A stretch of 64,000 nucleotides of DNA from Rhodanobacter sp. C03. GTDB taxonomy: Bacteria > Pseudomonadota > Gammaproteobacteria > Xanthomonadales > Rhodanobacteraceae. How positions within the stretch are numbered: position 1 is the stretch's first letter; every line of letters starts with the position of its first letter. Both the position numbers and the translations under genes were made by a program. This document shows positions 790-42,561 of the stretch, piece after piece. Where the stretch lies: positions 620,001 through 684,000 of the forward strand of contig NZ_MUNT01000006.1 in the NCBI RefSeq assembly GCF_002001175.1, given 5' to 3'. The notes under the pieces are model-generated. The model had not been told where the DNA came from, did no database searches, and saw only the letters and a program-made list of their open reading frames with translations.

Positions 790-2640
790 TCAGGGCAAGC
801 CCAGCATGCCGCGCTCCAGCGCACCCGCGCCACGTGGCTGGGCCGCCGGCTTCGGCACCTCACTCGGCCATGTCGCGCCTTCGTATAGATGTGCCCACAG
901 CCGGTCCAGCGCCGCATAGCCATACGGCAGCAGCGGCACGTGCTGGTCGCCGAAACCGGGCAGTGCCAGGAACGCATCGAAGTGCTGCGCGTGCGGTACT
1001 TTCCAGTAGATCGGTTCACGCCCTTCCTCGCGCAGCCATGCCACATACGGCTCGGAGCTGAACGCGGTCGGCAGCAAGCCGTCGCTGGCGCCATGAATCA
1101 CCCACAACGGCAGGTCGTTGCGCGGCAACTTGACCGCGGTGGCCGCGATGGAAGCGTGCAAGACCTGCGACTCAGGATCGTCGCCAGTCCACAGCGCGCG
1201 CAGGCATTCGCTGCCGATCAGGGTCGGGTCGGCCGAGACGCTGGTGCCGCCGAGCAGACCGATGCCATTGCCCGGTGGAATGCCCGAGCCATCCGCCCAC
1301 CAGGATGCCCGCGTGGCCGGATCGACCACACCCGGCAAGCCCTTGGCATCGATCGCCGCGTAATGGAAACCACATGGCATGTCCGTGGCACCCCGGCGCA
1401 GATAGGACGAGGCATAGCCCGCGGCAATCACCCGCCACAGGTCGAACGCGGTCGTGCTGGCAGCCGTGCTCATCGCCTCGTCGGTCCAGCCGCGGATATG
1501 CAGGTACTGATAAGCCTGCTCGGCTTGTTCGGCCACGGTGCTGCCGCTCAGCTTGCCCTGCGCGCGCAGGCTGGCGCAGCGCGACGGCCATGCCGGTGGC
1601 AGCACACCTTTCGGCGCACGCGCGAACGGCGCGGCGGCGAAGCGCTCACTGCCCAGCGCGCAAGGCAGCCAGATCGCAGCCTCGGTCGCGTAGTCGTACA
1701 TCGCACGGCCGTGATCCTGCACGTGCACGTTCGGCTCCAGCGCCACCACGCCGGCGAAGAAATGCTCCTGATCGAGACCAGCCGCCTGCAACACCGCGCC
1801 ACCGCCGTTGGACAGACCGGTGGCGATGATCTTCGTGTTCTGCGCCGTGAACGGGGCCTCGGCGGGAAACGCGCGATCGAGCATGGCCAACCCGAACTGC
1901 GCCGCCTGGATCACATGCCGGCCCCAGTCAGCCTCCGGGTTGTCGCCGGAGTTCATCTGCTTCACCGCGATACCCGCACTCGGTGGTGCCGGTGGCGGCT
2001 GGAACTCCAGCTCCGCTTCGCCGCGTTTGGCACGGCGACCATCCAGCGCCACGCCGCTGTTGTCGGCGTAATCGAAATAGCCGGCGCCTGTGCCCTTGTC
2101 CGTGTAGGCCACCGCGCAACCGCGCGGCAGACCCCAGGAACCGGCCAGCGAGATCGCGCCGTAGATGCCGCGCGAACCGGATGAGGCCGTGACAACCAGG
2201 CAGCGTTTCTGCTTGTCGAAATGGTCAGGCAGCTGCAGCAGCACACGATGCGGCGCGCGTGCGCCGGGGATGCGCGCAAACGCCTCGTATTCGCGACCCG
2301 GTACATCCGGCACGCCGCCATACACCGTGCCGAAACCACCCAGCGGGCCGAGATCGGCAATACCTTTCCAGCTGGTCTGGATCGCCCGTCGGCGCAGTTC
2401 TTCGGCGGTGGGGGCCAACGGATCGGCAAATGGCAGCGGCGCACCAGCCAGCCCTGCCAATCCCAGACCCGCAGTCAACAGATCGTCGTGACCGCGATGT
2501 TCGGTCACACGCACTTCGCCGTAATCGACCTCACGCATGGCGGGTTCCCTCGTCACCGGGCTGCTGGCACAAGCCGACAGCATGACTGATACCAGCACGG
2601 GCAAGCACAGCAGCGTCGAACAACGGGCGGATTTCTTCAT
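790..2640 (-). CDS. Putative lipoprotein 3-hydroxybutyrate-oligomer hydrolase
   Basis: A 616-residue protein resembling D-(-)-3-hydroxybutyrate oligomer hydrolases, which cut the soluble oligomers released from PHB into monomers. The N-terminus is a lipoprotein signal with lipobox LSAC (Cys 24), so an envelope-anchored enzyme is expected rather than the free secreted form. The nucleophile elbow G-L-S-N-G places the catalytic Ser at about 277. The WADGSG and GASDGLLP stretches near 445 and 530 fit the alpha/beta-hydrolase shape of this family. The length is near the 600-700 residues usual for the family. It is divergent from the crbR-like regulator that starts 117 bases away, which suggests shared control. 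The family call is from sequence memory; substrate specificity is not proven. Confidence 0.82.
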   Translation of the reverse strand: MKKSARCSTLLCLPVLVSVMLSACASSPVTREPAMREVDYGEVRVTEHRGHDDLLTAGLGLAGLAGAPLPFADPLAPTAEELRRRAIQTSWKGIADLGPLGGFGTVYGGVPDVPGREYEAFARIPGARAPHRVLLQLPDHFDKQKRCLVVTASSGSRGIYGAISLAGSWGLPRGCAVAYTDKGTGAGYFDYADNSGVALDGRRAKRGEAELEFQPPPAPPSAGIAVKQMNSGDNPEADWGRHVIQAAQFGLAMLDRAFPAEAPFTAQNTKIIATGLSNGGGAVLQAAGLDQEHFFAGVVALEPNVHVQDHGRAMYDYATEAAIWLPCALGSERFAAAPFARAPKGVLPPAWPSRCASLRAQGKLSGSTVAEQAEQAYQYLHIRGWTDEAMSTAASTTAFDLWRVIAAGYASSYLRRGATDMPCGFHYAAIDAKGLPGVVDPATRASWWADGSGIPPGNGIGLLGGTSVSADPTLIGSECLRALWTGDDPESQVLHASIAATAVKLPRNDLPLWVIHGASDGLLPTAFSSEPYVAWLREEGREPIYWKVPHAQHFDAFLALPGFGDQHVPLLPYGYAALDRLWAHLYEGATWPSEVPKPAAQPRGAGALERGMLGLP

Positions 2641-2756
2641 TCCGCCACCATAACAAGCACGCCGCCCACCGCCATCGTACGAAAGTCCAGTCCCGGTCGA
2701 TGCCGTGTCACGCGCCGAACTCGACGCGGCTGCCGCAGCCCGCTAACTTCAACGAC

Positions 2757-3416
2757 ATGACGAGCCTGCTGATCGCCGACGACCATCCACTGTTTCGCGC
2801 CGCATTGCGCCTTGCCGCCAGCGAAAGCCTGCCCGATTGCACAGTGCGCGAGGCCGCGGATCTGTCGGGCGTACTCGCTGCACTGGCCGCCGAGCCGGAC
2901 ACCGACCTGGTCCTGCTCGATCTGCACATGCCCGGCAGCCAGGGCCTGTCCGGTCTCGCCACGCTGCGCGGCCAGCATCCCAGCGTCGCCGTGCTGGTGG
3001 TCTCTGCCCACGACGAACCGCGCATCGTGCGCCGCGTACTCGATCACGGCGCCGCCGGCTTCATCCCCAAGAGCGCCAGCCCCGCCGAAATCGGTGAGGC
3101 GATCCGCCACGTGCTCGACTGCGGCAACTGGCTGCCGCCCGGTCTTGCCGCCGCCGTCGCGGCACTGCCCGCCAATCCCGCCGACACCGACCTCGCCAGC
3201 CGCCTCGCCCGCCTCACCGAACAGCAGTCCCGCGTGCTCACCCTGCTCGCCGAAGGCCTGCTCAACAAGCAGATCGCCGACCGGTTGGCGATCCAGGAGC
3301 GGACGGTGAAGGCGCATGTGACGGCGATCTTCGAAAAGCTGCGAGTAAGGAATCGGACACAGGCGGGGATGTTGTTGCGGTCGTTGGATTTGGGAGAGCC
3401 GGCACGGGTGGGGTGA
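2757..3416 (+). CDS. crbR: CrbR-like LuxR-type response regulator
   Basis: A 219-residue NarL/LuxR-type response regulator. The receiver has acidic residues D8/D9 and the phospho-acceptor D55 in LLDLHMPG. The C-terminal helix-turn-helix covers about 150-210 (LTEQQSRVLTLLAEG, then NKQIADRL...RTVKAHV). The reading frame extends further upstream, but the ATG at 2757 begins exactly at the receiver's first strand (MTSLLIADDHP) and is preferred. The opening is very close to CrbR/ErdR regulators, which switch on acetyl-CoA synthetase and C2/short-chain acid use in Pseudomonas and Vibrio. Its probable partner kinase is the minus-strand gene at 4233-7544, separated from it by an HNH gene. The pairing and the target genes are inferred from similarity and proximity. 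Confidence 0.85.
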   Translation: MTSLLIADDHPLFRAALRLAASESLPDCTVREAADLSGVLAALAAEPDTDLVLLDLHMPGSQGLSGLATLRGQHPSVAVLVVSAHDEPRIVRRVLDHGAAGFIPKSASPAEIGEAIRHVLDCGNWLPPGLAAAVAALPANPADTDLASRLARLTEQQSRVLTLLAEGLLNKQIADRLAIQERTVKAHVTAIFEKLRVRNRTQAGMLLRSLDLGEPARVG

Positions 3417-3448
3417 CCAGCTCAAACACAAAGTGAAATGGAGATCAC

Positions 3449-4201
3449 ATGAAGATTACGGAAGCACAAGTCGAAGCATCATGCAGAATCGCATCAGCCG
3501 TGTATGCCGGCAGGATGACGACCGCTGAAGGCATAAATGAATTAGTCAATCAGCACCAAGTCAATCAAGCTACAGCCCACGACTTTATCTATGACTACAA
3601 AAGACTGACTCAAGGCAAGTTGTTTCAGCGCGCCATGAGCGCCCAAGCGATGACTTATTTCATTGAGGAAATTGCCAGCACGCATGGAATGTCAGGGTTC
3701 GCAAACGCCATCGAATCCTTGTGGTCGCACATCCGCTACTACGAAGGACACACCAAGACCACGATGCACAAGATGCGAGTGGTGGTGACAGGATTTGAAA
3801 CTAGGCTACCCAAGTCACGCTTGCCTCGTCTCACGGATGTGCAGGCGGAGCTTGCCAACCAAGTCACCAAATCTCTTTCGGATTTGAGCGATGCGCGCAC
3901 TAAGCGCTTAATCATTGCGAACAAGGTTGCTCCTCGCTTGGAGGTTCGCACAACGATTTATGTACGCAATCCAGATGTCGTCGCCGCAGTGTTGGATCGT
4001 GCGGGAGGACTCTGCGAGCGCTGCAAGTCCAAAGCACCATTCATACGCGCATCAAACGGTACACCGTATCTTGAAGTCCATCATCGCATTCAACTAGCGG
4101 ATGACGGGGAAGACAGCACCGATAACGCCATGGCGATTTGCCCTAACTGCCATCGAGAACTTCATTACGGTGCCACCGAAAAACGGGAAGAAATCACATA
4201 A
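3449..4201 (+). CDS. HNH endonuclease, McrA-like C-terminus
   Basis: A 250-residue protein with a zinc-braced HNH nuclease domain at about 165-240: Cys 189 and 192, the EVHH pair at 211-212, Asn 226, then CPNCH at 231-235. This architecture is typical of McrA-like and other HNH nucleases that nick or cut DNA. Residues 1-160 are mostly helical-looking and match nothing I recognise; they could be a DNA-reading domain. AGATCACATG-type spacing gives a plausible ribosome site (GGAG). Codon and base use (many AT-ending codons, close to half GC) differ clearly from the GC-rich genes on both sides, and it separates a regulator from its probable kinase, so recent acquisition is likely. A role in restriction of modified or foreign DNA is inference. 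Confidence 0.85.
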   Translation: MKITEAQVEASCRIASAVYAGRMTTAEGINELVNQHQVNQATAHDFIYDYKRLTQGKLFQRAMSAQAMTYFIEEIASTHGMSGFANAIESLWSHIRYYEGHTKTTMHKMRVVVTGFETRLPKSRLPRLTDVQAELANQVTKSLSDLSDARTKRLIIANKVAPRLEVRTTIYVRNPDVVAAVLDRAGGLCERCKSKAPFIRASNGTPYLEVHHRIQLADDGEDSTDNAMAICPNCHRELHYGATEKREEIT

Positions 4202-4232
4202 ACCAATGAGCGTCACAGAACACGATGTCTCT

Positions 4233-7200
4233 CTATCGCGCCTGTCCCGTTGCAGAAACTGCCCTCTGTAACACCTGTCGTAGAGCCAATGGCTTGAGTG
4301 GCTTGTACAGAACGCCGATCCCCACATCAAGCAACTTTTGGCGCAGCTCGCCATCACGATCCGCCGTGAGCATCACCGTCGGCACATCGGCATGCCGTTC
4401 GCGTAGCTGATGCCAGACATCGAAACCGGTGGCGCCGCCGTCGAGGTGGAAATCGAGGATATGCAGATCCGGTCGCCACGGCGCCGCCAGCGCCTGCTCG
4501 GCATTACGCGCAGCGTGCACGTGCCAGCCCCAACTGGTGAGCAAACTGCTGAGTGCAGCGAGTGCAGCCGGTTCGTTGTCCAGCACCAGCGCACGACCGG
4601 CCGGCAATGACTGCTGTGCATCGGCGACAGGCGGCAGTCGTATCGCAGCTCGCGCCATCGGCACGCTGAGGTCGAACACACTGCCGCAGCCGGGCCATGA
4701 GCGCAGCCCGAGCGGGTGACCGAGCAATCCAGCCATGCGTTGCGCGATCGACAGACCCAGCCCCAAGCCCTGCCCACCCGCCGCGCTGCCACGACGAAAC
4801 TCCTGGAAGATCAGTTGCTGCTCGCCCGGCGCGATGCCCGGCCCGGTATCCCACACTTCCACGCGCAGCTGATCGCCACGCCGGCGCACGCCAAGCAATA
4901 CGCGCCCGTGCTCCGCATAACGCAACGCATTCGACAGGAAGTTCTGCAACACGCGCCGCAATAGTTGTGGATCGGAACGCACCCAGGCACGCGTGCCCAC
5001 CACATCGAACCGCACGCCGCGATCAAGCGCGATGGCGCGGAATTCCGCAGCGAGTGGATCGAGCACCTCGGCCAGCGGAAACGCGCGTGGCTGCGGATGC
5101 AGACGGCCGCCTTCCAGACGCGCGATATCGAGCAGGCCGGCGAGCAGGCCTTCGGTGGCGGCGAGTGCGCCATTGAGATGATGCGCGGTGGCGGCATCGG
5201 CGCCGCGTTCGGTGAGCGAGTGGGCGAACAGCTGCGCCGCGTGCAGCGGCTGCATCAGGTCGTGGGTTACGGCGGTGAGGAAGCGGCTCTTCGCCTCGTT
5301 TGCGCCTTGTGCTTCCGCCGAGGCTGCAGCCAGCGCGCGGGTGCGTTCCTCCACCCGCAGTTCCAGCGTTTCGTTGACGCGCTTGAGCGAGCCTTCGGCC
5401 TGGCGGAAAGCGGTGACGTCGGTGAACGTGGCGACGAAGCCGCCACCGGGCATCGGGTTGCCGCGGATCTCGACGATGGTGCCGTCTGGGAAGCGCCGTT
5501 CGGACAGGTGCCGGGTGCCGGCGCGCATATGAGCGAGTCGCTGCTGCACTCGCTGCTCGACTTCGCCGGGGCCGAGCATGCCGGCGTCGATGTTGTAGCG
5601 GGTCAGCTCGGCCACCGAGCGGCCGACCTGCAGCAGTTCGGGTGGATAGTCGAACAGGCGCGCATACGGACTGTTCCAGGCGACCAGCTGCAACTCGGCA
5701 TCGACCACGCAGATGCCCTGGCTCATGTTCTCCAGCGCCGCTTCCAGCACGCGCTGGTTGAAGCGCAGGTCCTGCGCTGCCTCGCCGACGATGGCGACGA
5801 CGGTATCCAGATCGTCGCGACCCTGTCGATGCACCACTTCCAGCAGCAGGCGCGCCGAGGCGGCACCGATCACGGCGGCCAGTTCGTGCTCGACCTCGGC
5901 CACGCGCGCACTGCCGGCGGATCCCGTAGCGGGCGCGTTCGCAAACAAGTGCTCGACCCGCTCGGGCGGCAGGAAACGCGCCGCCAGCGCATGCAGTTCA
6001 GTGACGCCGACATGACCTACGCTGACCGCATGCGTGACCCGGCCATAGCGCGAACCGGCCACCGCCAGCATCACCGCACCATTCGCCGCCAGACTCACCA
6101 CCACCGCACGACCCAGCCGGTTCCAGTCGCCCAGTCCGAGCAGATCGTCCGGCGCCAGCCAGCGCAGGCCGAACGGACCCACATGCAACCAGGGCAATGC
6201 CGACGGCAGCAGCGACGGCAGCACCGCATATATCCACACCAGCGTACCGGCCGCCAGCCCGGCCATTACCGCACGCGAGCCCAGTTGCGGGCGATACACC
6301 GCAGCCAGCAGCGCCGGCGTGAGGCCAGCAAGTGCGGAGAACGAGATCGCGCCGATATCGGCCAGTGCCTCGTTGCGCGCCAGCACACGGCTGTACGCCC
6401 ACGCCAGCAGGATCACCACCAGGATCGCCACGCGCCGGTGGTTCAGCAGTTCGCCGCGCAGATCGCCATGTTCGTCGCGGCCCCAGCCAGCCTTCACCCG
6501 CAGCGGCGCGATGAAGTGATTGACCACCATCAGGCTCAAGGTCAGCGTGGCGATTACCACCATGCTGGTGGCGGCACTAAGGCCACCGAGGAAAGCGATC
6601 AACGCCAGGCCGTGTTCACCGCGCGCCATCGGCAGTGCCAGCACGTACATGTCCGACGACACCCCGCTCGGCCCCAGCAGCGCATCGCCGATCCGCGCCA
6701 GCGGCAGGATCGGCAGCGAGATCAGCAGCAGGTACAACGGAAACAGCCAGCGCGCGCTGCGCAGATGCCCGTCGTTGCGGCACTCCACGATGCCCGCATA
6801 GAACTGTTGCGGCATGGTGAACATCGCCAGCGCACCGAGCAGGATCAGCGCCGGGAAGCCACTGCTGTCCGGCGGTGGCGGCACGTTGACCGGCAACCCC
6901 GCCGGCAGCGCCGTGAACAGCAGTGTGCCCAGTGCCAGCATCGCGCCAAGCTTGAACAGCGACTCGAACGCCATCGCCAGCACCAGCCCGCGGTTGTGCG
7001 CCATGGTCGAGGCACGCCGCGTGCCGAACAGCATCGCGAACAGCGCCATCAGCAATGCCACATACAGCGCACTGTCCTGCCACGGCTCCGACTCGGCCAG
7101 CTGGCCGTGGCTGAGGATGCCGTAACTCATCGCCACCGCCTTCAGCTGCAGCGCGATGTACGGCACGATGCCGATCAGCACCACCACGGTGACCAGCGCG

Positions 7201-7544
7201 GCCAGCCCCGAATGCCGTCCCAGCCGCACCGCGATCAAGTCAGCCAGCGAACCGGCGTTGTACTCGCGCACCAGCTGCACCATGCGGCGCAGGAATTTCA
7301 GCGCGAACAGATACATCAGGATCGCCCCGACGAACGTCGGCGGCAGCCACCAGCCGGAGCGACTGGCCTGGGTCACCGTGCCGTAGAAAGTCCATGAGGT
7401 GCAGTGGATCGCCAGCGACAATGCGTAGACGATCGCCCAGCGTTTCTCGAACAGTTGCGGACGACGTTCGCCGAGCAGGGCCACGCCGAACAGCAGGCCC
7501 AGCCAGCACAGCGCGGCAACGGCAATGATGCCGGCGCTCAGCAT
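4233..7544 (-). CDS. crbS: CrbS-like SLC5/PutP-linked hybrid sensor kinase
   Basis: A 1103-residue hybrid kinase. Residues 1-500 form a sodium:solute-symporter (SLC5/PutP) module with about 12 hydrophobic segments. A linker follows (505-595, possibly a STAC-like domain), then a PAS domain (about 596-715), a short coiled coil, a HisKA domain with His 761 in VTHDLMQPL, and an ATPase with N-box Asn 872 and G-box DTGPG at 899. A receiver completes it, with Asp 1031 in ILDFHLDG and Lys 1081. The layout matches CrbS, which activates acetate metabolism through CrbR; CbrA is the other known SLC5 kinase but lacks the receiver. All catalytic residues are present. The neighbourhood suggests the signal may be 3-hydroxybutyrate or a derived short-chain acid, which is inference. 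The start codon lies just before the first membrane segment. Confidence 0.88.
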   Translation of the reverse strand: MLSAGIIAVAALCWLGLLFGVALLGERRPQLFEKRWAIVYALSLAIHCTSWTFYGTVTQASRSGWWLPPTFVGAILMYLFALKFLRRMVQLVREYNAGSLADLIAVRLGRHSGLAALVTVVVLIGIVPYIALQLKAVAMSYGILSHGQLAESEPWQDSALYVALLMALFAMLFGTRRASTMAHNRGLVLAMAFESLFKLGAMLALGTLLFTALPAGLPVNVPPPPDSSGFPALILLGALAMFTMPQQFYAGIVECRNDGHLRSARWLFPLYLLLISLPILPLARIGDALLGPSGVSSDMYVLALPMARGEHGLALIAFLGGLSAATSMVVIATLTLSLMVVNHFIAPLRVKAGWGRDEHGDLRGELLNHRRVAILVVILLAWAYSRVLARNEALADIGAISFSALAGLTPALLAAVYRPQLGSRAVMAGLAAGTLVWIYAVLPSLLPSALPWLHVGPFGLRWLAPDDLLGLGDWNRLGRAVVVSLAANGAVMLAVAGSRYGRVTHAVSVGHVGVTELHALAARFLPPERVEHLFANAPATGSAGSARVAEVEHELAAVIGAASARLLLEVVHRQGRDDLDTVVAIVGEAAQDLRFNQRVLEAALENMSQGICVVDAELQLVAWNSPYARLFDYPPELLQVGRSVAELTRYNIDAGMLGPGEVEQRVQQRLAHMRAGTRHLSERRFPDGTIVEIRGNPMPGGGFVATFTDVTAFRQAEGSLKRVNETLELRVEERTRALAAASAEAQGANEAKSRFLTAVTHDLMQPLHAAQLFAHSLTERGADAATAHHLNGALAATEGLLAGLLDIARLEGGRLHPQPRAFPLAEVLDPLAAEFRAIALDRGVRFDVVGTRAWVRSDPQLLRRVLQNFLSNALRYAEHGRVLLGVRRRGDQLRVEVWDTGPGIAPGEQQLIFQEFRRGSAAGGQGLGLGLSIAQRMAGLLGHPLGLRSWPGCGSVFDLSVPMARAAIRLPPVADAQQSLPAGRALVLDNEPAALAALSSLLTSWGWHVHAARNAEQALAAPWRPDLHILDFHLDGGATGFDVWHQLRERHADVPTVMLTADRDGELRQKLLDVGIGVLYKPLKPLALRQVLQRAVSATGQAR

Positions 7545-7590
7545 GCGAGGGTCCTTGGGGCCGAGGCCGCGATCGCCTTCAACGCGCTTT

Positions 7591-7686
7591 TTTGTAGGAG
7601 CGACTTCAGTCGCGATGCCCTTCGCAGATCAGGATGATCGAGCCAAGGCATCGCGACTGAAGTCGCTCCTACAATCGCTCCTACAG
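7591..7686. repeat. REP-type extragenic inverted repeat 2
   Basis: A 28-bp perfect inverted repeat (7592-7619 and 7647-7674) around a 27-base loop, followed by an extra partial copy of the arm end (TCGCTCCTACAG, 7675-7686). Compared with the copy at 727-787 the inner palindrome reads GCGAC-TTCA-GTCGC, so both sides of the small hairpin changed together. It lies between the kinase gene start (7544) and the depolymerase stop (7726). Confidence 0.85.
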
Positions 7687-7725
7687 GGTTCTGGGCGCAG
7701 GGGTGATGGTGAAAGCTCACCGCCA

Positions 7726-8763
7726 TCAAGGCTGCGTTGGCAACCCCAGCGCATGCACCGCATTCACCAGCCAGCGCAGCTGCATGCCCTGGCGGCTGTC
7801 GTAGTCGGCTCCGGAATATCCCCACCAGTCCCAGCATGCTTGCGGATTCAAGGGCGCGAAACTTGCGCGGGTCTGAGGATATAGCACGGCTACATCGTAG
7901 ACATCCGCCCAGCGGTTGAAGCCGGCGTCTTGCACGAACGCCTCGCCCACCGCGTCGGCGTTCTGCTTGCAGCCATGGAACGCGACCACCAGGCCGCACG
8001 GCTTGCCGGCGAGGCAGTCCGGTGGCAGATAGACGTAGCCGGTCTTGGCCAGCAAGGCATCGGCACCATCGGGGCGCAGTGCATCCTGGTCGAACGTGCG
8101 CAATTCACCACGTGCCTGTGCTGCCGCGTGGGCCGGCTTGCCGAACATCTGCGCGAAGATTTCACCGGCGGCATCGAAGCCGCAGTGGCCGAGATACGGC
8201 GCCACCGATTTGTCGCAGTCATCGCCGCTTGCCGCCACTGGCAGGTTGTGCGCGAACGCGCGCTGGCCGTCGTCATGCACCTGCATGCCGCTCAGGCCTG
8301 GCGTGTTGTCGCGCAATTGCTCGTAGAAATGTGCGCCCGCCTCCGCCACCGCCGGCGCAACCAATGCATCAGCGCTGCCGTGCAACAGGTAGACATGGGC
8401 ATGCGCGAGATCCTTCAACGGACCGATCTCGCCGGCGGCCGCACGTTTGGCGGCGCTCGCCACCAGCGCGCCGACATCCGGTGCCGGCACGCCCTTCATG
8501 CAACTGCCCAGCGCAGTTTCCAGCTTGCCACCAGCGCAACCGTAAGGGCCACCGGCAACCAGCGCCGCGTTCGGGAACAGTTCCGGATACGCCAGCTGCG
8601 CCTGGGTCGCCATATAGGCGCCGGACGAAAGCCCGACCACGGCGACACGCGACGGATCGAGCTTCAGCTTCGGCAGCGAACCCGCCGGCTGGGCTGCACA
8701 GGCGCTAGCGCTGGCCAGCAACAGCGACAGGCCGAACGGGCGGATCCAGTTTTTCAATGACAT
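7726..8763 (-). CDS. phaZ: Secreted polyhydroxybutyrate depolymerase
   Basis: A 345-residue alpha/beta hydrolase of the extracellular PHB-depolymerase type, expected to cut PHB outside the inner membrane into oligomers. An N-terminal signal peptide ends around residue 22-26 (ASACAAQ). The lipase box G-L-S-S-G puts the nucleophile Ser at 46, unusually close to the N-terminus but normal for this subgroup. An HGSAD motif near 127-131 and an AFHGCKQ motif near 265-271 are further family marks. There is no C-terminal linker or substrate-binding domain, unlike the classical polymer-adsorbing depolymerases. A GGAG ribosome site precedes the start. It lies 97 bases downstream of the TonB receptor on the same strand and is probably co-transcribed with it. 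Similar folds include feruloyl esterases, so the exact substrate is not proven. Confidence 0.8.
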   Translation of the reverse strand: MSLKNWIRPFGLSLLLASASACAAQPAGSLPKLKLDPSRVAVVGLSSGAYMATQAQLAYPELFPNAALVAGGPYGCAGGKLETALGSCMKGVPAPDVGALVASAAKRAAAGEIGPLKDLAHAHVYLLHGSADALVAPAVAEAGAHFYEQLRDNTPGLSGMQVHDDGQRAFAHNLPVAASGDDCDKSVAPYLGHCGFDAAGEIFAQMFGKPAHAAAQARGELRTFDQDALRPDGADALLAKTGYVYLPPDCLAGKPCGLVVAFHGCKQNADAVGEAFVQDAGFNRWADVYDVAVLYPQTRASFAPLNPQACWDWWGYSGADYDSRQGMQLRWLVNAVHALGLPTQP

Positions 8764-8860
8764 CGACGATCTCCATGGTTAGACAACGACATACGCCGAG
8801 TATGCAGCGGGTTCATGCGATGCCTCCATGGCATGAACCCTCAACCATCAGGCTGACCGC

Positions 8861-11092
8861 TCAGAACGTGTAACGCGCGCTGAGGGTCACCATGCGTGGG
8901 GCGCCGTAGTAGCCGGTGACGATGCCCAGTGCCGCAATGTTGTAGCCGGTGGTGCGATAAGCCTTGTTGGCCAGGTTGGTGCCCTGCAGGCTCAACGTCC
9001 ACGGTGTGTTGATCTGCCAGATCAGGCCCGCGTTCCACAGGCCGTAAGCCGGCTGCGCGATCAGCGGCGACAGCGTGGTCTCCGGATACACCAGGCTCTG
9101 GTAGCTGTAGTTGATGCGCGCAGTGAGGCTGCCACCGTTGGCCAGCGGCTGCGTGTGATCCAGCGACAGGGCGCCGGAGAACTTCGGCGCGTTGGTGAAT
9201 TTCTGCTGGTCGGCCACGTTGACGCCGCCGCTGAGGAACTGGGTGTACTTGGTGTGCATCCAGGCGAAATTGCCGCTGAGGGTCCAGTTTTCCGCCGGCT
9301 TCCAGGCGAACTCTTCTTCCAGACCGTCGATATGCCCCTTGCCGGCGTTGGTGAAGTCGCCGAAGAAGCCCTGACTGCCATTCGGCAAGGTGTAGGAGGT
9401 AAACACCGACAGCTGGATGTTGGAATAGATATTGTGGAACAGCGCCGTGTTCATCATCAGCGCATCGTCGAAGAAGGTCATCTTGCTGCCCAGTTCGAAC
9501 GACTGCACCTTCTCGTCATCGATCGGCCGGCACGAGCTGGGAATCGCTGCGCAATTCGCGCGGATGTTGTAGCCACCCGAATGGAAGCCGGTGCTGTAGC
9601 TGCCGTAGAGCTTGATGTCGTCGCTCAGGCTCCAGTCCAGCGAGACCTTGGGCGAGGCATTGTTCGAGGTGTGCGAACCGGAGAAGTTGGCCAGCACCGC
9701 GGTCGACGTGGTGAAGTTCGCGTTGGCGAAACCGTAGTTCTGGATCAGGGCGCTCTTGGTCTCGCGGGTGAGGCGTGCGCCCACGTCGAGGCTCAGGCTC
9801 GGGCTGATGTCCCAGGTGAAGTCGCCATAGGCGGCCAGGCTGCGCGTGCTGATGCGACCACCGGTGCTGCCGTACTGCGCATAGCCCAGCGTGGAGTAAG
9901 GCGGCGAACCGAGGAAGATGTTGTGGATCTCGCCGTCGGCCGAGCCGTTGAAATAGTACAGACCGGCCACGCCATGTACGGTACTGCCGGAATCGTAATT
10001 GGCCTGCAGTTCCTGGCTGAACTGGTGATCCTTGTAGATCGCGCTGACGTCCGCGATCTTCTCCGGCAACGTATCAAAGTCGATATTGGTGTCGGTCGAG
10101 GAGCCACGCACCGCGGTGACCGATTTCAGAGTCCAGTCCTGGCTGGCGATCCAGTTGAGCGTGAGCGCGCTGCCGTAGAGTTTGGTGTGGTTGACCTGCG
10201 GCATGCCGCTGCGCGTGTCGTAATCACTGGAAAGCGGCGCATAGGTCGGGTCGAACAGGTTGCCGGTGAGCATCTTCGCGCCGCGCGGATTGGAGTTGTC
10301 GCGAACTCCGTCCACCGACAATTGGGCATTGAAGGTGCTCGACGGGAAGAAGCCGAGCGTGGCGCGTCCGGCATTGGTGTTCTTGTTGCCGTTGCGGCTG
10401 CCACTGAGCAGATCAGTGCCGAATCCGTCGTTGTGCTCGCTGGCGTAGGCCACGCGACCGCGCCACACGCCATCGGCACTGGCACCGCCCACGTTGGCCT
10501 TGACGTCCTTCTCGCCGTGCGTGCCGATGGTCGTCTCCACCGAGCCTTCGGTCTTGGTCGGCAACGGCGCGGACACGTACTTGATAGCGCCGCCGATGGT
10601 GTTCTTGCCGTACAGGCTGCCCTGCGGGCCGCGCAACACCTCGATGCGGCTGACATCGAACACGTCGAGCACGGCGCCCTGCGGGCGGGCCATGTAGACG
10701 TCATCGAGATAGATGCCGACCGCCGGATCGAAACCCCAGGTCGGATCGGCCTGGCCGATGCCGCGGATATAGGCGGTAAGCGTGGTATTGGAACCGCGCG
10801 CGGCATAGATCTGCAGCGACGGCACCTTGCCCTGCAGGTCGGCGAGGTTCTGCACATTCTGCGTATACAGCGAGTCGGCGGTGAACGCGCTCACCGCGAT
10901 CGGCACGTCCTGCAGGGTCTCCGCACGCTTGCGCGCGGTCACCGTGATCTGGCCGAGCTGCTTGGCATTGGCCGGCTTGCTCTGCTCGGTCGTGGTGCTG
11001 CTCTCGCTGCTTTGCTGGGCATACAGCGGTGCGGCAAACAGCAGGCCAGTCGTCGCCAGACCAATCGCCAGACTCAGATACGTGCGCTTCAT
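8861..11092 (-). CDS. TonB-dependent outer-membrane receptor
   Basis: A 743-residue TonB-dependent receptor with a signal peptide (1 to about 26, ending at LYAQQ). A TonB-box-like segment QITVTARKR lies near residues 46-54. The plug domain is at about 55-165 (VEVLRGPQGSLYGKN-type signature, here IEVLRGPQG), followed by a beta-barrel ending in the aromatic residue of ARYTF. The frame is open eight codons further upstream, but the ATG at 11092 has a GAGGGG ribosome site seven bases ahead and starts the signal peptide, so it is preferred. It is divergent from a GntP-family permease and followed by the PHB depolymerase. That context suggests uptake of hydroxyalkanoate oligomers rather than iron, though the barrel sequence alone cannot name the ligand. 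Confidence 0.88.
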   Translation of the reverse strand: MKRTYLSLAIGLATTGLLFAAPLYAQQSSESSTTTEQSKPANAKQLGQITVTARKRAETLQDVPIAVSAFTADSLYTQNVQNLADLQGKVPSLQIYAARGSNTTLTAYIRGIGQADPTWGFDPAVGIYLDDVYMARPQGAVLDVFDVSRIEVLRGPQGSLYGKNTIGGAIKYVSAPLPTKTEGSVETTIGTHGEKDVKANVGGASADGVWRGRVAYASEHNDGFGTDLLSGSRNGNKNTNAGRATLGFFPSSTFNAQLSVDGVRDNSNPRGAKMLTGNLFDPTYAPLSSDYDTRSGMPQVNHTKLYGSALTLNWIASQDWTLKSVTAVRGSSTDTNIDFDTLPEKIADVSAIYKDHQFSQELQANYDSGSTVHGVAGLYYFNGSADGEIHNIFLGSPPYSTLGYAQYGSTGGRISTRSLAAYGDFTWDISPSLSLDVGARLTRETKSALIQNYGFANANFTTSTAVLANFSGSHTSNNASPKVSLDWSLSDDIKLYGSYSTGFHSGGYNIRANCAAIPSSCRPIDDEKVQSFELGSKMTFFDDALMMNTALFHNIYSNIQLSVFTSYTLPNGSQGFFGDFTNAGKGHIDGLEEEFAWKPAENWTLSGNFAWMHTKYTQFLSGGVNVADQQKFTNAPKFSGALSLDHTQPLANGGSLTARINYSYQSLVYPETTLSPLIAQPAYGLWNAGLIWQINTPWTLSLQGTNLANKAYRTTGYNIAALGIVTGYYGAPRMVTLSARYTF

Positions 11093-11262
11093 GACATCCC
11101 CTCGCTGTTGACGCAACCATCGACGATGGATGCTGATGCGATGGAGAGTAGGCAGCCGGCAGCGTCACGACACTTGTACCTTCGTACAGTGCCCGCGCGG
11201 CCGGCACGCGCCGATACTCGGCCCTCGTCGACTCCGACCTTGTCTCCCGAGGATCCGCAAGG

Positions 11263-12660
11263 ATGGCATTCCTGATCGTGCTGGCCGCGCTGTGTTTCCT
11301 GATGTTCGCGGCGTACCGCGGCTACAGCGTGATCCTATTCGCGCCGATCGCCGCGCTCGGTGCGGTGCTGCTGACCGAGCCGGCATTGGTCGCACCGATG
11401 TTCACCGGCCTGTTCATGGACAAGATGGTCGGCTTCCTCAAGCTGTACTTTCCGGTGTTCATGCTAGGCGCGGTGTTCGGCAAGCTGATCGAGCTGTCCG
11501 GCTTCTCGAAGGCGATCGTGGCTGCCACGATCGGCCTGGTCGGACGCAGCCGCGCGATCCTGTCGATCGTGCTGGTGTGTGCGCTGCTCACCTACGGTGG
11601 CGTATCGCTGTTCGTGGTGGTGTTCGCGGTGTATCCGTTTGCCGCCGAACTGTTCCGCGCCAGCAATATCCCGAAACGGTTGATTCCCGGCACCATCGCG
11701 CTGGGTGCGTTCACCTTCACCATGGATTCGCTGCCGGGCACGCCGCAGATCCAGAACATCATCCCCACCGCGTTCTTCGGCACCAATGCGTGGGCGGCGC
11801 CGTGGCTGGGCACGATCGGCGCGGTGTTCATCCTGATCGTGGGTCTGGCGTATCTGGAATCACGCCGGCGCAAGGCCGCCGCTGCGGGCGAAGGCTATGG
11901 CGACAACCTGCTCAACGAACCGGCGCCGTTCAAGTACGCCAAGCTCGCCCACCCGCTGGTCGCGCTGCTGCCGCTGGTGCTGGTTGGTGTCTGCAACAAG
12001 CTGTTCACCGATCTCATTCCGCGCGTCTACGGCGCAACCCAGTCGTTCCTGCCCAGTGTGGTCGGCGAGGCCAAACCAGTGGTGCAGGAAGTATCGAAGA
12101 TCGCGGCGATCTGGGCGGTGGAAGGGGCGCTGCTGGTCGGCATCCTGTGCGTGCTGGCGTTTGCCTGGAAGCCGGTGATCCGGCAGTTTGCCGATGGCAG
12201 CAAGGTGGCTGTCGGTGGCGCGCTGCTCGCCTCAATGAATACGGCCTCCGAATACGGCTTCGGCGCGGTGATCGCCGCCCTGCCCGGCTTCAAGCTGGTG
12301 GCCGATGCACTGCACACGATTCCGAACCCGCTGGTGAACGAGGCGGTCACCGTGACCGCGCTGGCCGGCATCACCGGCTCGGCCTCCGGTGGCATGGGTA
12401 TCGCGCTGGCGGCGATGGCCGATACCTTCATCGCCAATGCGCATGCGGCCGGCATTCCGCTGGAGGTAATGCACCGGGTGGCCGCGATGGCCTCCGGCGG
12501 CATGGACACCCTGCCGCACAACGGTGCCGTGATCACCCTGCTGGCGGTGACCGGACTAACCCATCGGCAGTCCTACAAGGACATTTTCGCGATCACCGTG
12601 ATCAAGACGCTGGCCGTGCTGGTGGTGATTGCCACCTACTACCTCACCGGCATGGTGTGA
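11263..12660 (+). CDS. GntP-family permease, probably for 3-hydroxybutyrate
   Basis: A 465-residue inner-membrane transporter with about 12 hydrophobic segments. The GntP-family conserved stretches are visible: FTMDSLPGTPQIQN near 160-173 and a late ASGGMDTLPHNGA block near 411-423. This branch of GntP includes permeases annotated for D-beta-hydroxybutyrate and related organic acids, whereas the gluconate branch has different motifs. A GAGGA ribosome site sits nine bases before the ATG. It is transcribed away from the TonB receptor across a 170-bp shared control region. Import of 3-hydroxybutyrate produced by the hydrolases nearby is the most economical reading, but other hydroxy- or keto-acids are possible. 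Confidence 0.82.
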   Translation: MAFLIVLAALCFLMFAAYRGYSVILFAPIAALGAVLLTEPALVAPMFTGLFMDKMVGFLKLYFPVFMLGAVFGKLIELSGFSKAIVAATIGLVGRSRAILSIVLVCALLTYGGVSLFVVVFAVYPFAAELFRASNIPKRLIPGTIALGAFTFTMDSLPGTPQIQNIIPTAFFGTNAWAAPWLGTIGAVFILIVGLAYLESRRRKAAAAGEGYGDNLLNEPAPFKYAKLAHPLVALLPLVLVGVCNKLFTDLIPRVYGATQSFLPSVVGEAKPVVQEVSKIAAIWAVEGALLVGILCVLAFAWKPVIRQFADGSKVAVGGALLASMNTASEYGFGAVIAALPGFKLVADALHTIPNPLVNEAVTVTALAGITGSASGGMGIALAAMADTFIANAHAAGIPLEVMHRVAAMASGGMDTLPHNGAVITLLAVTGLTHRQSYKDIFAITVIKTLAVLVVIATYYLTGMV

Positions 12661-42248: not shown

Positions 42249-42561
42249 CCCGCACCAGAAAACCGGCTGAACACCAGCTGGCCTGGTGGATTTTGCCGGT
42301 CGGTCACCGGCGTCATCGACAAAGCGCCTGAAAACCGCTGCCTGCGACGAGAATCCATTAGACCATCGTCTCGAATGCACGCTGGCAGCCTGTTTCGAGC
42401 ACCTTGCGGGTTGCCGCCTCGCGGCAGCCAAAGGCTATAATTGTCCGGATTCTCTCCAGTCATCCGTTTGAACGGTCGGTCGGGCTTGAAAACCCGCCAA
42501 AAACCGCGACTTCCTTGGTCACACGGATGGCTGCAAGCATCCCTTCCCTGCCGGTGGTGAC
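42249..42561 (+). other. sucA: Leader and promoter region of sucA
   Basis: This 313-bp gap contains a hairpin (42272-42277 with 42283-42288) followed by TTTT that may end the roxA unit. A second small stem lies at 42295-42311. A perfect -10 TATAAT (42436-42441) has a weak TTGCCG 19 bases upstream and is the likely sucA promoter, giving a leader of about 115 bases. No open frame with support was seen. Confidence 0.5.

Follow-up and report, generated by a model that had tools for sequence, protein, structure and literature searches.

TonB-receptor carbohydrate utilisation loci of xanthomonads bring together a receptor, a secreted hydrolase, an inner-membrane transporter and a dedicated regulator. 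Among two-component systems, the CrbS/CrbR pair (MxtR/ErdR) of Pseudomonas and Vibrio, which responds to acetate, joins an SLC5-PAS-hybrid kinase to a LuxR-type regulator, and RpuS/RpuR of Sinorhizobium fredii, likewise an SLC5/STAC kinase pair, has adopted another small acid together with its transporter and controls the pyruvate symporter MctP; the available part of that report mentions neither a receptor nor polymer-degrading enzymes (PMC9100948). Here we analyse a locus of Rhodanobacter sp. C03 within a stretch of 64,000 nucleotides, called the window throughout (contig NZ_MUNT01000006.1, positions 620,001 to 684,000; G000:C14:620001-684000 in our genome set, where G, C and L numbers denote genomes, contigs and loci and G000 is the window's own genome). 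Between window positions 790 and 12660 lie, from left to right, the genes for a 3-hydroxybutyrate (3HB)-oligomer hydrolase (HBOH), a CrbR-type regulator, an HNH endonuclease, a CrbS-type SLC5 hybrid kinase, a poly(3-hydroxybutyrate) (PHB) depolymerase, a TonB receptor and a divergent permease. We consider it likely that these genes, the HNH gene apart, form a co-regulated module for 3HB oligomers and, where the depolymerase is present, for short or amorphous PHB, run by its own CrbSR-type pair.

Compared with the carbohydrate loci, which handle sugars under a sugar-responsive regulator, the present locus would serve polyester oligomers under an SLC5 kinase pair. This pair resembles CrbS/CrbR in its protein architecture and in an imperfect palindrome with an AC-N4-GT core that lies almost equally far upstream of the (predicted) start, and differs from it in not lying beside acs, in regulators that group apart, in GTAC rather than GAC half-sites and in its proposed targets, which are 3HB/PHB genes rather than acs/actP. 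The depolymerase shares a single catalytic domain and the same active-site positions with the PHB depolymerase of PDB 2d80, a fungal enzyme (presumably from Penicillium funiculosum) that has no bearing on transport or regulation. What appears to be new here, as read from the sequence, is the palindrome in the two divergent promoters of the locus. In the open-access literature (titles and abstract beginnings, subscription papers aside) no work was found that addresses the uptake of PHB fragments across the outer membrane or its sensing, and both look little studied; the locus offers a concrete receptor, permease, sensor pair and predicted operator in common soil and marine genera. It also suggests that members of an acetate-type sensor family can come to differ in the genes they target and in their DNA site, with promoter geometry nearly kept.

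Gene content and linkage

An earlier note, made from the letters of this DNA, had placed six functional genes here, and domain and family matches bear out all six. The features of the locus are as follows.

790–2640, minus strand: HBOH, predicted lipoprotein of 616 amino acids; PF10605 (3HBOH), E 9.9e-124, 414.6 bits against a gathering score of 27; lipobox LSAC read in the sequence.
2675–2691 (core 2677–2688), no strand: predicted CrbR operator in the HBOH/CrbR divergent promoter, TCGTACGAAAGTCCAGT; pattern G[GT]AC-N4-GT[AC]C conserved upstream of HBOH; the site also matches a stricter pattern.
2757–3416, plus strand (reading frame open from 2700): CrbR-type (ErdR/LuxR family) response regulator, locus-specific paralogue; Response_reg and GerE domains, regulator trees.
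3449–4201: HNH endonuclease gene, between regulator and kinase.
4233–7544, minus strand: CrbS-type SLC5-PAS-hybrid histidine kinase of 1103 amino acids; PAS_7, HATPase_c and Response_reg domains, PDB match, kinase tree.
7726–8763, minus strand: exported single-domain PHB depolymerase of 345 amino acids with a type 2 catalytic domain; NF050059, 312.9 bits (cut-off 280), PDB 2d80 match.
8861–11092, minus strand (reading frame open from TTG at 11116; ATG at 11092 is likelier): TonB-dependent receptor; plug and barrel Pfam matches, fold model.
11145–11150, minus strand: predicted -10-like box TACTCT of the receptor–depolymerase promoter; TANNNT at the same offset in 49 upstream regions, that of the window among them, out of 56 aligned.
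11171–11191 (core 11176–11187), no strand: predicted CrbR operator in the receptor/permease divergent promoter, CACTTGTACCTTCGTACAGTG; pattern conserved upstream of the permease.
11213–11218, plus strand: predicted -10-like box GATACT of the permease promoter, without the first T of the consensus; xANNNT at the same offset in 45 of the 56 regions, the window included.
11263–12660, plus strand: inner-membrane permease, distant member of the GntP / ion-transporter superfamily, proposed importer of 3HB or short oligomers; homologues match PF02447, AlphaFold model.

A lipobox was present in 27 of 43 HBOH orthologues by a crude pattern, with some start sites and landmarks wrong. The depolymerase carries an export signal and aligns almost end to end with PDB 2d80 (E 3.5e-42); the serine of its GLSSG motif falls on the residue that is altered in the 2d81 chain, and the alignment also covers D, H and HGC, of which we take D and H to be catalytic residues. 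No substrate-binding domain was found in this enzyme, which is 96% identical to that of Rhodanobacter sp. C05 and whose nearest named relatives are Rhodanobacter. A simple pattern detected a lipobox in the depolymerase of nine of 80 loci; since the enzyme usually has none, its location would be the periplasm or the outside.

In the receptor both plug and beta-barrel were matched by Pfam, and its AlphaFold model shows a TonB-dependent-receptor fold, closest to FyuA (4epa), with the plug modelled poorly. The permease had been labelled GntP-type, which fails for the window protein itself (0 Pfam or NCBIfam matches, PF02447 included) and holds through its homologues, four of seven aligned ones matching GntP_permease (PF02447) at E 0.01 or better and two being shown over the gathering score. 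Its AlphaFold model is ion-transporter-like and resembles DASS/TRAP-type transporters, and a PDB search with the permease profile gave nothing usable. The AlphaFold models are of moderate quality (pLDDT 63.6 for the permease and 65.8) and were used for fold class only.

Linkage was assessed in 80 loci, the best of 142 found in a depolymerase-based scan, 49 of which had full 10-kb flanks (37 Rhodanobacteraceae-like, 12 Alteromonadales-like). Permease and receptor were present in all 37 fully flanked Rhodanobacteraceae-like loci, the kinase in 36 and the regulator and HBOH in 34 each, with all five depolymerase partners together in 34; no regulator lay within reach in L024 and L033, and L058 had neither regulator nor kinase. 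Five of the 12 Alteromonadales-like loci contained permease, receptor and regulator, four of these also the kinase, and in the other seven no further member was matched.

Because the Rhodanobacteraceae-like loci were selected by their depolymerase and share ancestry, recurrence in other gene orders is the stronger evidence. In Alteromonadales (L065, L068, L071, L074, L080) kinase, regulator and receptor stand on one side, followed by permease, a MetX-like exported esterase, depolymerase and 3HB dehydrogenase, and in Rheinheimera (G026, L223) permease, esterase, receptor, regulator, kinase and dehydrogenase are found together, away from its depolymerase. Further versions comprise permease, receptor, kinase, regulator, dehydrogenase and HBOH (G013); HBOH, dehydrogenase, regulator, kinase, receptor and permease (G313); HBOH, dehydrogenase, regulator and kinase only (G017); and a set that includes the depolymerase and an SDR below the 3HB dehydrogenase cut-off (G015), while G190 has two copies of the module. 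The clustered 3HB dehydrogenase exceeds the TIGR01963 cut-off in L065, L068, L074, L080, G013 and G313 and is recognised by homology in L071, G017 and Rheinheimera; its frequent presence points to 3HB as the product used. The earlier note had named a lack of conserved linkage in related genomes as a ground for refutation; the synteny search returned a linkage that is kept in Rhodanobacteraceae and recurs, with its genes rearranged, in Alteromonadales and further Xanthomonadales families. Together with the clustered dehydrogenase (in Alteromonadales, Rheinheimera and several other genomes), this linkage lends support to the PHB/3HB salvage route that had been suggested.

A paralogous sensor pair and its palindrome

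Residues 12–448 of the kinase match PDB 10ed_A ('histidine kinase', E 3e-48), PAS, HATPase and receiver domains are also present, and no Pfam transporter model matched the protein. For the regulator, ATG at 2757 is a likelier start than 2700; its score of 214 bits against NF041830 (ErdR) lies below the cut-off of 390, under which its acs-linked relatives also fall (best 266.9). In a survey of 21 genomes (the window's own and 20 relatives), ErdR-model matches at E 1e-40 or better formed two sets, an acs type, mostly beside acs and with its own kinase (as in G007, with acs, regulator and kinase in a row), and a locus type. Both types occur in nine of the 20 relatives (G002, G005, G006, G007, G009, G010, G013, G014, G015). 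The window's genome yielded the locus-type regulator only, with no acs-type regulator and no second full-length kinase found, and its pair does not stand beside acs: the one match exceeding the acs cut-off is on a different contig (C21), and the acs-like gene left of the window is a propionate--CoA ligase. A further regulator was found beside acs in six of six Alteromonadales-like genomes searched, and the three of these acs loci that were fetched wider (L254–L256) also contain the kinase and GACC-N3-GTC upstream of acs.

A first regulator tree, which already set locus-linked and acs-linked regulators in separate groups, lacked the Alteromonadales acs-linked copies and could not say which groups are sisters. 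The rebuilt tree of 40 regulators includes these copies and took 16 of the 56 locus-type and seven of the 14 acs-type rows of the first tree, or newer versions of them. In it the locus-linked regulators (16 Xanthomonadales-type and G313 rows, six Alteromonadales and Rheinheimera rows) form one group apart from the acs-linked ones. The pair is a separate paralogue with CrbSR architecture, set apart by location, grouping and operator. The idea that the acetate CrbSR itself had been coupled to PHB salvage is not supported, as the pair groups apart from the acs-linked copies and has its own palindrome.

Two long-branched CrbR-like regulators with CrbS-like kinase matches (L224:7620-8285 and L225:9360-9989; Glaciecola and an uncultured member of the Alteromonadaceae) have no permease, receptor or depolymerase nearby. 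A further CrbR-like regulator in Aestuariibacter (L226:7119-7754), a few kb from genes we take to be prpB and prpC and from an aconitase match, is perhaps another branch of the family, tied to propionate.

The palindrome, of the form G[T/G]AC-N4-GT[A/C]C and scored up to 250 bp upstream of genes, was revealed by an alignment of relatives, for which a weight matrix built from published ACTU sites had been dropped (moderate matrix scores in the locus, of 9.04 at 11217, 7.73 at 11174 and 8.96 at 2675, against higher ones elsewhere in the window, such as 15.09 at 42357). As CACTTGTACCTTCGTACAGTG or a close form it precedes the permease in 61 of 63 loci, Alteromonadales included, where GTACCATAGTAC was found in four of six; of the two misses, L030 has its site farther out, at 286 bp, and L022 shows a match no more than 250 bp from its receptor. 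A related site, TGGACTTTCGTACGA, precedes HBOH in 35 of 41 loci. Markov shuffles gave a mean of 0.74 of 63 for the permease (largest 4) and of 0.32 of 41 for HBOH (largest 2). The receptor count (63 of 66, with misses in L059, L060 and L066 and four loci unscorable) refers to the same interval as the permease and is not independent. Other upstream regions gave 0/78 for the depolymerase, 2/55 for CrbS, 2/44 for TypA, 1/39 for peptidyl-prolyl isomerase, 1/11 for LysR and 0/10 for AcnA, and the value for CrbR (23/53) is low because its annotated start cuts into the site.

The predicted promoter geometry is conserved as well. When 55 Rhodanobacteraceae-like promoters are aligned, information content reaches 1.75 bits per column within the site and drops to 0.55 and 0.59 in the 40 bp on either side. 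The predicted -10-like boxes on the receptor and permease sides, the latter mostly GATACT, have their ends at an equal distance of 36.5 bp from the centre of the palindrome. If the final base of the box is set at -7, the predicted 17-bp site spans -51 to -35 of the permease; ACTU in the Pseudomonas fluorescens acs promoter occupies -52 to -36 (PMC5715377).

Permease homologues in 321 genomes of the class served as a control (14 matches, 12 regions fetched): three regions were linked to the module, two of them with the site, and none of the nine unlinked regions had one within 250 bp. Within the window's genus the strict pattern is present in six of seven genomes with the locus-type regulator and in none of six without it; G010 has no strict match and keeps a variant at HBOH. 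The window's genome contains the strict pattern in three places, two of them at this locus. The third (G000:C19:113562), near a gene that to us reads like exonuclease III, was judged a chance match, as the matches listed for the close relative G007 do not include it. Both strict matches in G020 fall within reading frames. The CACTTGTACCTTCGTACAGTG site has no second match within three mismatches in the window. At L197 (G014:C1) permease and receptor keep the palindrome, and the 15 kb fetched there contain no regulator, kinase or HBOH; the operator follows the gene pair.

ACTU, in turn, is found with the acs-type regulator: nine same-genus genomes with such a regulator (eight beside acs, that of G005 on another contig) carry TTCGACCAAAGTCGA with 0–2 mismatches upstream of acs, G011, which is 89% complete, being placed in neither class. 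In G004, which has two acs genes, the copy away from the regulator (L086) has no site and the regulator-linked copy has a GACCAAAGTC core. Upstream of acs in the window's genome (L085) there is no site within four mismatches of the relatives' core, and the acs of G003 (L094) is likewise without ACTU, no acs-type regulator having been found there either. Between kinase and depolymerase the window contains a REP-like inverted pair (TGTAGGAGCGACTTCAGTCGCGATG and its reverse, about 7590–7690). Inside this pair lies an ACTU look-alike, at 7598/7652, by which motif scans would be misled; it was set aside.

Proposed route and alternative explanations

In the route that we propose, the exported depolymerase, an enzyme of established family, would cut PHB outside the cell or in the periplasm. 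The TonB receptor, judged by its linkage, shared promoter and constant presence, would carry oligomers across the outer membrane, and the lipoprotein hydrolase, true to its family, would cut them to 3HB. The permease may then import 3HB or short oligomers, and BdhA and a ScoA/PcaI-family CoA-transferase, encoded elsewhere, would make acetoacetyl-CoA. The SLC5 kinase would sense 3HB or a close product and phosphorylate the regulator. To judge from the position and phyletic link of the palindromes, the regulator would bind one of them in each of the two divergent promoters and so switch on the permease, the receptor and depolymerase (and perhaps the kinase), the hydrolase and itself. Both downstream genes are present in the window's genome, unlinked to the locus: a 3HB dehydrogenase at C19:101405 that exceeds the cut-off in three models, and a CoA-transferase subunit of the ScoA/PcaI family at C17:205442 (248.5 bits). 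The best sign of a polyhydroxyalkanoate (PHA) synthase there is one match over 55 residues, whose 24.2 bits just pass the Pfam cut-off of 23.7; five relatives reach 125–260 bits. The genome appears to have no true PHA synthase, which would make exogenous PHB or oligomers the likely source.

The depolymerase is the least constant member, and the core is accordingly the use of 3HB oligomers and 3HB, with the depolymerase optional. In one G190 copy a type-1 PHA depolymerase (C8:411656-412522, 279.9 bits, cut-off 150) directly adjoins the permease, so a different depolymerase type occupies the same module. The receptors fall into three types that are 29–35% alike (45, 14 and 6 of 65 rows; a full-length frame was obtained from 64 of the 70 loci with a receptor match and the other six were left out). 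Within Rhodanobacter and Dyella the place is taken now by type one, now by type two, which we read as a need for some receptor at this position, and the types are perhaps tuned to oligomer length; TonB uptake of oligomers, which the earlier note had raised, would fit the linkage. A bolder proposal, which we put forward tentatively and would not yet lean towards, is that a separate SLC5-kinase branch older than the split of Xanthomonadales and Alteromonadales senses 3HB, that its own palindrome drives the polyester locus and that interchangeable TonB receptors import the oligomers, as the first polyester uptake route.

Several observations weigh against a dedicated 3HB-oligomer module. G013, G017, G313 and one G190 copy have no depolymerase at the locus, that of Rheinheimera is unlinked and without the palindrome, and neither extracellular depolymerase type exceeded its cut-off in G013, G014, G017 and G313. 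The palindrome is missing at HBOH in six of 41 loci (L018, L020, L038, L040, L045, L051) and in the receptor/permease interval of G013 and of one G190 copy, although G013 does carry it at the dehydrogenase/HBOH interval; G014 has no site at HBOH/regulator, and no strict match was obtained in G017. In the window's genome bdhA is unlinked to the locus and has no strict match beside it. The window contains the bare pattern at least as often as chance would give (3 occurrences, 2.1 expected), and the case rests on position and conservation. Five divergent loci from metagenome-assembled genomes (MAGs; L059, L060, L061, L064 and L066) combine a receptor (54–56% identical) with the depolymerase and have no permease match and no palindrome near the receptor, L059 having kinase and regulator all the same. 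In the trees, the group of locus-linked regulators, at 93/95, narrowly misses the tool's mark of 95/80. The kinases fall into four clean clades, and a deep split to match that of the regulators has a support of no more than 54/5.

The alternative that survives best concerns the receptor, which might be an iron, haem or cofactor receptor merely lying in the locus, with 3HB and its oligomers entering by porins; we regard this as unlikely. In the PDB the receptor has siderophore receptors (FyuA 4epa) as its nearest relatives, which also counts against the module, and none of the PDB matches listed is a solved receptor with a 3HB-oligomer-type ligand, so the substrate is not readable from homology; 3HB monomers and dimers, moreover, are small enough for porins. 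On the other hand, every one of the 63 loci that combine permease and depolymerase has a receptor starting no more than 4 kb from the permease, even though three dissimilar types fill the place, one palindrome is common to receptor and permease, and in G014 this pair is kept with its palindrome where the remaining members are not in the 15 kb fetched.

Somewhat less probable still is that the module serves another polyester or hydroxy-acid, such as plant or microbial 3-hydroxy-acid esters, and that PHB is not its natural substrate. The frequent lack of a PHB depolymerase in the core and the MetX-like esterase added in Alteromonadales would suit this view; the recurring enzymes, however, are a 3HB-oligomer hydrolase and a 3HB dehydrogenase, and the depolymerase, where present, is of the short-chain-length (scl-)PHA type.

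It is quite improbable that the pair is an ordinary acetate CrbSR with the PHB genes as extra members of an acetate regulon. The protein families and their domain order are the same, the half-site spacing is like that of ACTU, and 3HB is broken down to acetyl-CoA. Yet a distinct acs-type pair coexists with the locus pair in many relatives, the operators differ (GTAC-N4-GTAC against GAC-N4-GTC), and the window's genome, in which the locus pair was the only one found, has an acs without ACTU. Finally, that the genes are neighbours by descent only, on a slowly changing chromosome stretch without shared function, is hardly credible: TypA and peptidyl-prolyl isomerase do flank 31 and 34 of the 37 fully flanked Rhodanobacteraceae-like loci, but in other families and orders the same members turn up rearranged and lacking both flanking genes, and the palindrome clusters in the promoters of the locus.

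Neighbouring genes and divergent versions

The HNH endonuclease gene was matched in none of the 80 related loci and is for this reason probably a lineage-specific insertion that does not belong to the 3HB system. About 3.5–7.6 kb left of the window (L192:12441-16520 in G000:C14), the propionate--CoA ligase gene prpE stands beside genes that we take to be prpC and prpB, and a propionate pathway next to the PHB locus could serve 3-hydroxyvalerate units.

The five divergent MAG loci are perhaps an older or reduced version under other control. Another divergent version has a gene for an MFS transporter between receptor and depolymerase (L056:8664-9980). Lastly, L008 lies on a contig filed under a Chitinophagaceae MAG and carries a typical Rhodanobacter version of the locus, probably through a binning error.

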